Positions 33 through 49,844 of a stretch of 64,000 nucleotides of DNA are shown piece after piece (position 1 is the first letter of the stretch; the number at the start of each line of letters is the position of its first letter). Source of the stretch: Xestospongia bergquistia (taxonomy: Eukaryota; Porifera; Demospongiae; Haplosclerida; Petrosiidae). Both the position numbers and the translations under genes were made by a program. The notes under the pieces are model-generated. The model was not told where the DNA came from. It did not search any database and saw only the letters and a program-made list of their open reading frames with translations. Location: assembly GCA_963965975.1 (NCBI GenBank), contig OZ014412.1:4900501-4964500 (forward strand), written 5' to 3'.

Positions 33-3000
33 GAGGCTGCTAAAAGATGTTCAAAGGATATCGGAAGTACCAAGTATGAAGATCGGAAAGCTGCTTGGAT
101 ATTTCATCCATCATTGTTATCATCATGGTTTGAGGAAATGGGCATCATAAGAACAACAACAGAATTTATGGAAGAAGTAACACCACCAGATGAGGTCAGA
201 CAGTTCAATCAGAAGCCTTTTCTATAGATCACCGATTCACACTCATCTATCTTTATAATTCATAGCTCCCTCAACAAAACAGTCCACTGCATTCTCCTGA
301 CTCTTCATCTACAAACATGCCAGCAGTTAAGAACTCCATCTTTACTTCCCTTGCAACATCTGACTCCAACAATATCCCTAACAAAGAAGGAAAAGGCAAA
401 GGAAAAGGACGAGGAGGACAGATATTGCTCTCTAGTCTCGAGAAAGAGCTACTGGAATGGGGACTGATGGGTTTTCCCCCAACAGGACCCAATGGATTTA
501 AACCACGACAAGGTATACCTTAGTATAACTGTAATTAGGACTGTTCCTCGCTTGTATTGTATTAAAGAGGACCTTGTTGAAGTTAAGGTGTTCTCAATGG
601 GTGCTTCCAGCAGTGAAGTGATTGTTAAAAGTGAAGATGGATTTATTCCTGAGTATAGAGAAGACAGAGGAGATGAGGGAAAGAAAGGACAAGGAAAGAA
701 CAAGTTGGTATTGGTTCAGACAAGAAGTAAAGGTATTTGAAACAAACTCAACTTCTAATTTATTTTAAGTGCTTTTTATTTGTAGCTCAATTTGAATTGG
801 TTTTGCAAGGACAGCTTGACATTGAAGGTTAAAAATGTCCTTTTATTTTGACTCTTATTTATTCTCTTTATTGTCACCTAACCCTATCCTACCTCTCTCT
901 CTCTCTCTCTCTCTCTCTCTCTCTCTCTCTCTCTCTCTCTCTCTCTCTCTCTCTCTCTCTCTCTCTCTCTCTCTCTCTCTCTCTCTCTCTCTCTCTCTCT
1001 CTCTCTCTCTCTCTCTCTCTCTCTCTCTCTCTCTCTCTCTCTCTCTCTCTCTCTCTCTCTCTCTCTCTCTCTCTCTCTCTCTCTCTCTCTCTCTCTCTCT
1101 CTCTCTCTCTCTCTCTCTCTCTCTCTCTCTCTCTCTCTAAGATATCTGTATATCTTGTGGAACAACTAATATTGTCGCAGAGCATCCTCTTTTTCATGGT
1201 GGTCTGTGTAAGCCATGTAAAGTGAGTTATTAACACCACACTGATCACTACTTGATTTCATATCACTCCTGATATTAATACAATATAATAGACAATTTGA
1301 TTCCAAATTGACATTATATTGATTTACAGGAAAGTTTTATGGAGTATGCCTATCTCTTTGATGAGGATGGAACTCAAGTTAGTATAAATTTATTTGAATT
1401 CTTTGTCACAACATTACTTTCTTTACAGATGTACTGTACTCTGTGTTCAGGTGGAAACGAGGTCTTCATGTGTGACACACCAAACTGCTCCAAGTAAACA
1501 AAATAACTTTGATAGTACTGTGATAGTACTGTGACCTTCTTTTAATCTGCAGAGTGTACTGTGGACCTTGTATTGAGAAGTTGTGTGGTAAAGATGAGAG
1601 ACTATCAGTATGTCATTTTAGTTACTGCAGTGTGTTGTATGTTTGCTAGTGACTGTCTTTCTGTCTGTCTGTTCATTAAGTCTCTTGTCTGATTGTCTTC
1701 TTACTTTTTGACTTTTTTTATTAACTCATTTGTTTATTAGGTTCAAGAGATGAAGGAGTGGCAATGTTATATGTGTTCTGAGAACAGTAGTGTTGGTGCA
1801 ATCAAAAGAAGAGAAGACTGGAACCGAAAACTTCATGAGCTGTTTCTCAATGACAATGAAATGCAATACGTATGTCACAAACCCACTTACAATATGTTAG
1901 CAACTGCCACTCACTTTGCACTAGGAACCACTGAAGTTTTTGTCCCCTATACCAGCTGAAGAAAGGAAGCCAATTCGAGTACTTGGATTATTTGATGGGA
2001 TTGGAACAGGTATGACAAACTGGTATAGAAAACCTGTTTTATTAACATGTCATGCAGGTTTGTTAGTGCTGAAAGAGTTGGGTATCAACGTAGATGTATA
2101 TGTTGCATCTGAGATTGATCCAGATGCAGTGAAGGTACATCATGTGATAGTCACATGACTTGTCATAATGTTTTATGATAATCATATGTTATTCTCATGC
2201 AGGTATCACGAGTACAACATCCAGAAATACTTCATGTAGGAGCTGTGGAATATATTACAGAGAAGGAGGTTAATTAATCCAATGGTATAAAGGGATGTAC
2301 CCCTGTCATTATGTTAACACATAGGTACATGCTTGGGGTCCTTTTGATCTTATAATAGGAGGTAGTCCCTGTAATGATCTCTCAATTGTTAATCCAGCAA
2401 GGAAAGGAATTTATGGTAAGCAAAAATAAATAATTTCAAAGTAATATAAATTTCTTTATTTTTAGATGGAACTGGTAAATTGTTTTTTGAGTTTTTCCGA
2501 ATTCTAAGCTATGCTAAGCCACGCCCAGATGAGCAACGTCCATTTTTCTGGTTGTATGAGAATGTGGTTTCTATGAGAGCTCCTGATAAGCAAATTATAA
2601 GTCGGTTTTTACAAGTTAGTTAATGCAAACTCTATCCATCTTTGAATATTTTTATCATTTTCTTTCAAGTGCAATCCAGTGGTGGTTGATGCTAGAGAAA
2701 TATCAGCTGCTCATAGAGCTCGTTACTTCTGGGGTAACTTCCCTGGCATGAACAGGTACATCATTGATGTTCATTCATAATTCTAAACTTTGACCTTTTT
2801 CAGACCAACAATACCTCTCCCTGGAGATCGTCTAACACTTCAAGAATGCCTTGAACCTCACTGTTTCAGGACAGCACAAGTACATTGCATGTATTTGAAT
2901 GTTTAAGTATATTTTGTCTTCACTTTCAGTTTACAAAGTTGCGGACTATTACAACAAAGATGAACTCCATCAAACAAACAAAGAAAGCCATTTTTCCTGT

Positions 3001-47498: not shown

Positions 47499-49844
47499 TC
47501 ATAATGTCTCTAAAGCTAACTTTAATAATGAATACAACCTCTGTACATCAGTAAATGAATTATACATTGGTACTGGAGCACATCTCATATTGTGCCCACG
47601 ACAATCAACCTATAATAGATAATAAAAAGCAGGTGTGGTCAATGGGTGGAGGTGTGTCACTTACCACTGCTCCTCTTGCAGCAATAAATTCTTTAATTGA
47701 TGCCAACGGACAAGAGAATTGAAGTGATAACTGACAACCTCTCTCTTGTAAATTGTTTGACGTGGCAACAGTCACATGACCTGCACATGATATCAATGAC
47801 ATAATAGGTAGAAATATATTTAATAACCTTTCTGCTTTCTCTTCTCTGAACTAGCATTACTTGCCTCACTACTGAGGTTCTCTTCAATCAATAATTCCAA
47901 ATATCCAGTGAGTATACGAGACTTACGACATAAGTCTGTCATTGAAGTCTCTTTGAAAACCTACACAATATTAAAATGAATTTAACTAAAATACCAGTTA
48001 CCTCTAAAGATGCAACAAGTGGCATAATACTAAAAATAGGAGGGTTAGAAATTTGAAATCCAGCTGCTCCTGGTTGTAGCTGAAGTACTATCATTATCAG
48101 TAGTGGTATAATTATACTCAAAAAATACACATTTAATGTTACTAACCATTGTCCATTTCCATTCTGCTCTCTCTTTTATGTGACCACCATCCTAAAAACC
48201 TATTGAGAGAAAGAGAGAATGTTGTGCTGTATATCATTGATTTCTTTACCTTGGTCGATCAAAATCATATGCATGTTTCTCATGCACAAAGAATCCTCCC
48301 AAACAGCCAGGTCCTCCATTCATATACTGCACACATAATCAAATAATTTTAGCTTTTTCCGCTAACTTTATATGTACACCATGTTGCAACATTCAATATG
48401 TATATGTTATAGAATACATCCTTATATGTACACCATGTTGCAACATCCAATATGTATATGTTATAGAATACATCCTTATATGTACACCATGTTGCAACAT
48501 CCAATATGTATATGTTATAGAATACATCCTTATATGTACACCATGTTGCAACATCTAATATGTATATGCTATAGAATACATACCTTATATGTACACCATG
48601 TTGCAACATCTACCTCCCACTCATGTAATTTTAACTCAATATTACCAACAGCATGAGCTAAATCATATCCCACATAACAACCCTATATTAATTAACAGAT
48701 AATTATAGGAGCTGTCTAAATTAATTGAAACCTTTTTATGAGCTGTTTCAGTAATAGTTTTCATATCAAAAACATGTCCAGTTTCATAATGGATACCTAA
48801 CAGAAACAGGATGTGTTCCAGTACACTTTGACCTTTGACCTCATATACCTGATAATCAGACTAGAGCAATGGTATCTCCCTGTTCCTCAATGACCTTTAG
48901 TACATCTTCTGTATGCCATGTGAACTCTCCCTATACATGTTGGAGGTCAAGAGATACAGCTAATATTCACGGACATACCTCTCGTTGTTCAAGAAATATA
49001 ATAGAGTTTTTTGGATCAATACCATGCCAATGAAGTTGAGATTCCACTGCATACTGTAATGATCACATGACAATAATTGCTAATCATGTGATTCCTTACA
49101 TGATCTGAAGGAAAGGCACCTTTCTCTAGTAATATCTTGTAACGTTGTTGAGTAGGACGATAAAACGATACCTTTAGGATGTCGTGCAAATATCATGTGG
49201 TCATGTGATAATTTATTTTACTATATATACCATTGCTAGATGGACATTGACTGTTAGAGTGTTCATGGTAGTGACTTCAATTGATTTAGCACCTGCAATA
49301 TTATGCCTTTACAACATAATTAACTATATTAATTATTTTACCAACTATCCTTGCACTCTCTTCTTGTACAAAATCCTCTATCGGATACCATGGATACTGA
49401 CCATCAACATGACCATATACCCCTCTAATAATTGAAGATATTATGTTATAATTAATAAATAATACAGCTGATATAATTGTCAACATTACTTTTTGGCCCA
49501 TTTGTCCACTTCATTTTCAATAAAGCCCAGCACATTCTTTGGTTGCAATCCTAATGAATTACCACTCATATAGATGCATTCATTGTCAGGATCCACGTCT
49601 ATAAAATAAATGAATTGTCCAGTAATTATAACTACCTCTCTATAATACCTTCAGCCATTTTTCTCCCTTCTAATAACTCTCCAATCTTTGGAACATAGAA
49701 CTTGCTTCTAAATCCAGCTAGTTGATCACGTGAGTCTAGAGCTGCTGCGAATTTAGGATCTGTTATAGGTAGTCTCAATTCTGCAGACAGTCCTCTCAAA
49801 TATCCTTGAACTTCATCTCTAGTTTGAAGACTTGGCAGCTCCAT
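47499..49844 (-). CDS. KYNU: Kynureninase, copy 4, divergent
   Basis: Starts [25 protein letters not shown] at 49844 (exon 1 49649-49844, one codon shorter than KYNU1) and ends at TGA 47499. Exons read through [40 protein letters not shown], the PLP-lysine exon [23 protein letters not shown] and [11 protein letters not shown]. Introns are shorter than in KYNU1-3. The exon carrying the PLP lysine has its own normal donor at 48584, followed by a 54-bp minisatellite built from that exon end. It lies head-to-head with KYNU5. No break was found in the exons I read, but I did not total every exon length. Divergence suggests an older paralogue than KYNU1-3. Confidence 0.88.
48367..48610. repeat. KYNU: 54-bp minisatellite duplicating a KYNU4 exon-intron border
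   Basis: TATATGTACACCATGTTGCAAC starts at 48369, 48423, 48477, 48531 and 48586 (spacing 54, 54, 54, 55). The last is the real exon end (minus-strand codons VATWCTYK) with donor GTATGT. The other copies repeat the exon end, but three read GATGTA in place of the donor. The copies are open in one minus-strand frame. Confidence 0.93.

Follow-up and report, generated by a model that had tools for sequence, protein, structure and literature searches.

A stretch of 64,000 nucleotides from the sponge Xestospongia bergquistia, hereafter the window (contig OZ014412.1, denoted C2, positions 4900501-4964500, in a genome of 146,460,797 bases and 21 contigs), contains two tandem arrays that meet within the only full copy of the DDX10 gene. 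Very probably, the arrays result from two independent tandem segmental duplications that took place side by side, each of which grew to three units and was partly homogenised. DDX10 is considered an essential gene, and the host genome is considered compact. The window has a G+C content of 33.1% and zero N. Its genes, among them DNMT3 with an ADD domain, a Death domain, FN3 repeats, and kynureninase, suggest an animal source.

Two arrays and their joins

Comparison of the window with itself yields kilobase matches, mostly at 92-97% identity, that resolve into three head-to-tail units per array. The same arrangement had been proposed in the first-pass annotation of this sequence, which described two triplications of independent origin hinging on a single intact DDX10 and suggested a dot plot as the check. 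Of the 124 self-matches found at E 1e-10, array I accounts internally for 25 and array II for 53, a further 21 link array II with kynureninase copies and other non-array sequence, and none connects array I to array II. Thus, the two arrays are separate. Tandem segmental duplication, taken as two or more copies, head to tail, that are 1 kb or longer and approximately 90% identical or more, is observed in both of them, and in both one edge-to-edge join recurs at successive units. Unit edges were placed by base-by-base reading of the joins, and copy number was read from one assembly. Array I, delimited by self-comparison and join alignment, consists of u1 (2588..11583), u2 (11584..19442), and u3 (19443..27343), the last of which enters the intact DDX10 as far as codon 67. 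Array II consists of v1 (28540..35474), which starts within the intact DDX10, v2 (35475..41824), and v3 (41825..47670). All six units are in the plus orientation.

The intact DDX10 (27144..29417, plus strand) is an intronless gene encoding 757 aa. It covers both inner edges, that is, the end of array I and the start of array II, and the only complete DDX10 therefore does lie between the arrays, as had been noted earlier. The frame carries the DEAD (E-value 3.4e-46), Helicase_C, and CTE_SPB4 domains. When it is compared with solved proteins, long DDX18/Has1 chains come out on top by total score; among single-domain structures, DDX10 itself (2pl3, 236 aa, 1.7e-93) is well ahead of DDX18 (3ly5, 1.1e-55). 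A DNA search with the DDX10 segment 28000-29000 finds three places in the genome, all within the window, diverged paralogues being invisible to such a search.

In array I, the base corresponding to intact-gene position 27343 (the second base of DDX10 codon 67) is fused to position 2588 across 2 bp of filler, and the layout is identical at both junctions, 11581|11584 and 19440|19443. In array II, position 47670 is joined to DDX10 codon 467 at the v2/v3 junction (41822|41828, 5 bp between) and to codon 470 at the v1/v2 junction (35467|35475, 7 bp between), where the copy is short of approximately 10 further DDX10 bases. The earlier breakpoints, codon 66 and a place near codon 466, were thus correctly located inside DDX10, and their exact positions are codons 67 and 467.

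Each array contains two truncated pieces of DDX10. Those of array I, at 11397..11581 (u1/u2 join) and 19253..19440 (u2/u3 join), both on the plus strand, comprise codons 5-67; they start at approximately codon 5 and not at the start codon, which corrects the earlier description. The frame of the former stops after 28 codons, and the 65-codon frame of the latter is closed by a TAA created by the join. Neither piece has the upstream flank of the intact DDX10. In u1 and u2, though not in u3, this flank is replaced by a dispersed element that directly precedes codon 5 (19064..19252 in u2, approximately 11207-11396 in u1). The element is approximately 190 bp long with a GCGCATGCG core; it has at least 38 further matches in the genome (the best 40 of 115 candidates were scored), and inspection of aligned copies by eye shows no clear terminal repeats. 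An ATG stands ahead of the DDX10 pieces, and it was considered as the start codon of DDX10 itself. This candidate was rejected, as dispersed copies of the element carry the same ATG: two of the six aligned copies elsewhere (L014 and L015) agree with this sequence base for base as far as the start of the fragment, and L016 nearly so. The start codon is, therefore, a chance gift of the element. A DDX10-DNMT3 fusion protein was also rejected, since the join gives a TAA in the DDX10 frame and, by eye, DNMT3 is out of frame. In array II, the DDX10 pieces of v2 (codons 470-508, with one stop) and v3 (codons 467-508) both end at codon 508, after which 832 bp are absent. This common deletion ends 37 bp short of the start codon of the ATP synthase g gene.

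The outer edges, which were not part of the first-pass annotation, also fall within genes. The left edge of array I (2588) cuts an exon of the de novo DNA methyltransferase DNMT3 (match 2462-2620). This gene gives significant matches on the plus strand at 1132..3255, from the ADD domain to the catalytic C-terminus (ADD_DNMT3, 1.1e-11; exon-by-exon matches to DNMT3A/B in PDB, in all three frames); the span leaves out a weak match at 437. No other DNMT3 copy in the window reaches upstream of 2588; u2 and u3 hold the 3' exons only, with which u2 starts. Left of 2588, there is no duplicate in the window, save for a CT microsatellite matching itself. The latter is approximately 246 bp long (893-1138) and lies upstream of the ADD exon. 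The right edge of array II (47670) falls within an exon of kynureninase copy b (47502..49844, minus strand), which was recognised from separate pieces matched from the N- to the C-terminus, each of them individually a weak match. Within 47502-52110, copy b stands head to head with copy c (plus strand), the two being approximately 68% alike over 1 kb; copy b contains a minisatellite with a 54-bp period (48368-48612).

All four edges, therefore, are in coding exons, and they come from three genes (DDX10, DNMT3, and kynureninase). For each gene cut by an edge, one copy extends across it, as judged for DNMT3 and kynureninase b from the matched pieces. One whole copy per edge is the geometry expected of tandem duplication, and no property of DDX10 is needed to produce it. 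The earlier description of DDX10 as a hinge holds insofar as the intact gene is shared by the arrays; a special role was rejected as overstated, because DNMT3 and kynureninase b behave in the same way.

Formation and homogenisation of the units

The most probable scenario begins with two founding joins. In array I, the segment from the DNMT3 exon to DDX10 codon 67 would have been joined end to end without homology; in array II, the segment from DDX10 codon 467 to the kynureninase exon would have been joined likewise, with 5-7 bp of filler. The 2-bp and 5-7-bp fillers, together with neither long homology nor a shared repeat at the joins, are what non-homologous joining predicts, and the joining probably proceeded by end joining or replicative template switching. 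The broken unit of each array would then have undergone a secondary change: in array I, a dispersed repeat took the place of the DDX10 start region, and in array II, a deletion of 832 bp removed the end of DDX10 together with the spacer behind it. Consistent with unequal exchange, the two truncated units per array share this change, which is absent from the edge unit. The appearance of the third unit, probably by unequal exchange between units, is placed after the secondary change because, in either array, the two broken units have that change in common. Later conversion or further exchange would have evened out stretches of the units. One full copy is kept at each edge, and selection would presumably remove events in which it was lost.

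Divergence between units, measured as the mean difference over reliably aligned columns, amounts to 2.98% (u1-u2), 3.67% (u1-u3), and 3.05% (u2-u3) in array I; 3.63% (v1-v2), 2.15% (v1-v3), and 3.60% (v2-v3) in array II. It is distributed unevenly. In array I, values are as low as 0.7-2.2% at the DNMT3 end and in the spacer next to it; upstream of the LRR open reading frame (ORF), u1 differs from the other units by 7.3-7.7%, and upstream of the Death ORF, u3 differs from the others by 16-18%. The longest identical tracts, with gaps ignored, were compared with the mean maximum of 500 shuffles. The tract shared by u2 and u3 measures 1035 bases versus 189 in the shuffles (reached in 0/500); it occupies 14815-15857 in u2, with 8 gap bases ignored, and runs across the LRR-like ORF in units that are otherwise approximately 3% apart. 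The other tracts of array I are 444 versus 196 for u1-u2 (0/500) and 301 versus 159 for u1-u3 (1/500); those of array II are 614 versus 242 for v1-v3 (0/500), 324 versus 158 for v1-v2 (0/500), and 251 versus 162 for v2-v3 (10/500). Identity over such lengths is indicative of conversion or exchange in the recent past.

The units also have histories of their own. A 1042-bp insertion (7596..8637), a dispersed repeat, is present only in u1, and a 737-bp hAT-like insertion (38122..38858), likewise dispersed, only in v2. The latter has imperfect inverted ends, as seen by eye, and 45 further matches were listed, many of them partial.

Several observations weigh against this scenario of two founding duplications followed by exchange. 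The copies that reveal the filler and the missing homology have accumulated mutations since the joins were formed. Conversion among pre-existing broken units could also have spread the shared changes, and the order of events given above is for this reason inferred. A clean left/right hybrid middle unit, as would result from a single unequal crossover, was not found; the units form a patchwork. The odd unit out varies along both arrays, and the right halves of array II are most alike between v1 and v3; several exchanges or conversions must, therefore, be assumed. Finally, the tract shuffles take no account of an uneven mutation rate or of coding constraint.

Alternative explanations and the neighborhood

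The arrays could represent alleles of a highly heterozygous animal strung in tandem by the assembly, the real copies being fewer, for instance two per array. The unit divergence of 2.2-3.7% fits the inter-haplotype range, which in some marine invertebrates takes in these values, and the two array I joins hardly differ from each other. Stacking of unduplicated alleles, however, would not create joins, so at least one real duplication per array is very likely. Moreover, all three units of each array are mutually different and two have private insertions, silent divergence (dS, synonymous divergence) in the array I ORFs tested reaches 0.10-0.16, and a DNA search of the genome with the DNMT3 3', PDCD2, and ATP synthase g segments gives no matches outside the arrays, that is, no further assembly copies of the segments searched. 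Such an artefact is regarded as unlikely. A functional role of the DDX10 or DNMT3 pieces left at the joins, as short chimeric or regulatory products, is highly improbable. The 65-codon frame has an in-frame ATG provided by the dispersed element, the DDX10 piece of v3 and the DNMT3 pieces retain open frames, and the DNMT3 piece shows a ratio of nonsynonymous to synonymous divergence (dN/dS) of 0.25, on 55 codons only. On the other hand, the TAA at the join closes the DDX10 frame, the u1 piece stops early and the v2 piece has a stop, the array I pieces have lost the upstream flank of the intact gene, and there are too few changes for an estimate of selection.

A further possibility is that DDX10 is a genuine hotspot of breakage or duplication, where some feature of the gene, such as its transcription, replication, or chromatin, would have caused two independent edges within 1.2 kb. 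The proximity of these edges in one gene agrees with it, as does the duplication-dense stretch that starts at array I and runs to the right; in yeast, some short sequences found repeatedly at duplication breakpoints are described as acting as hotspots (PMC2518615). By eye, however, no motif or dispersed repeat is common to the founding edges, and the two other edges are equally inside genes. Given 7.1 kb free in 2588-53585, a gap between the arrays of at most 1.2 kb would be expected with a chance of approximately 17% without any hotspot. We consider this explanation quite unlikely. Very doubtful is its extension, in which DDX10 is a recurrent breakage point that bounds a conversion-driven nursery, where Death/LRR-type genes diversify under constraint and hitch-hiking housekeeping copies (PDCD2 and the DNMT3 3' end) homogenise or decay.

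The neighbourhood itself appears to be duplication-prone, as supported by comparison with two controls. Duplicates that are 1 kb or longer and at least 70% identical cover 73% of the bases in the window and likewise 73% in the 60 kb to its right, versus 0% in each of the two 60-kb control stretches, one immediately to the left and one distant, on contig C1. The left stretch has no self-match of 500 bp or longer at 70% identity; the distant one has none of at least 1 kb and six shorter self-matches of 526-809 bp. To the right of array II lies an FN3-type receptor-like array with members in both orientations, extending from 54073-64000 of the window to approximately 5.116 Mb of C2. A 2-kb query from it, itself included, has at least 20 near-full matches at C2 4.954-5.116 Mb among the best 40 of 168 candidates. 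The duplication-dense stretch, from 2588 to the last FN3-type match, measures approximately 210 kb, of which approximately 120 kb was read, and arrays I and II occupy its left end. Related FN3-type clusters are found, among the matches listed, on C9, C7, and at 6.9 Mb of C2, and LRR-like matches cluster also on C4. Thus, duplication-dense neighbourhoods are not unique to this locus. Of the local hotspot suggested in the first-pass annotation, the duplication-prone neighbourhood is supported, and a hotspot at DDX10 is not demonstrated. Further independent DDX10 edges in other individuals, if they exist, would make a breakage hotspot testable.

Gene content of the units and related systems

The units of array I carry a PDCD2-like gene on the minus strand (4100..5764 in u1, MYND 9.9e-8; copies at 13089-14745 and 20944-22495). 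The u3 copy contains the PDCD2_C domain (2.3e-22), and its exon 1 is frameshifted at approximately 22240-22249, where an A-run contains one A fewer than its counterparts in u1 and u2; this could be either decay or a base-calling error. Next to this gene, LRR-like, 243-aa, 105-codon linker, and Death-domain ORFs occupy 5953..10210 of u1 on the minus strand and have copies in u2 and u3. The LRR-like ORF, named by eye, has no Pfam match, and the 243-aa ORF has no match; the Death domain (3.3e-4, 21.2 bits) is under the Pfam cut-off of 22.6. A NACHT domain was not found in a Pfam scan of the u3 minus-strand frames (stops as X), which gave PDCD2_C and MYND only. Leaving out the Death ORF, dN/dS was calculated for the LRR, 243-aa, and 105-codon linker ORFs, in which it ranges from 0.17 to 0.41 at dS of 0.10-0.16; the exception is the LRR ORF of u2 and u3, which is identical. 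For PDCD2 exon 1 of u1 and u2, dN/dS is 0.91, with few changes. The units of array II carry the gene for ATP synthase subunit g on the plus strand (29536..30203 in v1; copies at 35629-36299 and 41992-42654) and kynureninase copy a on the minus strand (30856..33712 in v1, KYNU_C 1.8e-7; copies at 36703-40264 and 43061-45908). Pfam recognises ATP synthase g in v1 (9e-15) and v2 (7.9e-12); in v3, two of the three frames were scanned and neither gave a match. Three of its four exon pieces were tested, and these have open frames in v1, v2, and v3.

In summary, the locus provides a base-level example of tandem duplication that cuts the genes at its edges yet keeps one full copy of each. Growth to three copies and patchy homogenisation are observed next to essential genes. 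Comparable processes are described in the parts of the literature considered here. In yeast, segmental duplications arise by replication-based mechanisms that leave chimeric genes at the joins and the originals intact (PMC2518615), and in Drosophila yakuba, tandem duplication creates chimeric structures (PMC5460883). As in these cases, the edges in X. bergquistia are within genes, truncated or chimeric pieces are found at the joins, and the originals are whole. Unlike in the cases described there, a single parent gene belongs to two neighbouring arrays, each array has three units, and tracts of the units are homogenised. In another sponge, Ephydatia muelleri, tandem and segmental duplication is reported to be widespread, and unequal crossing-over and replication slippage are suggested as its causes (PMC7385117); tandem clusters and replicated gene clusters are common to both sponges, and the edges and joins are resolved here base by base. 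Duplication shadowing, the tendency of duplicates to gather beside existing duplicates discussed in PMC3878106, likewise resembles the situation at this locus, where duplicates lie beside duplicates and their density is judged against two control stretches.

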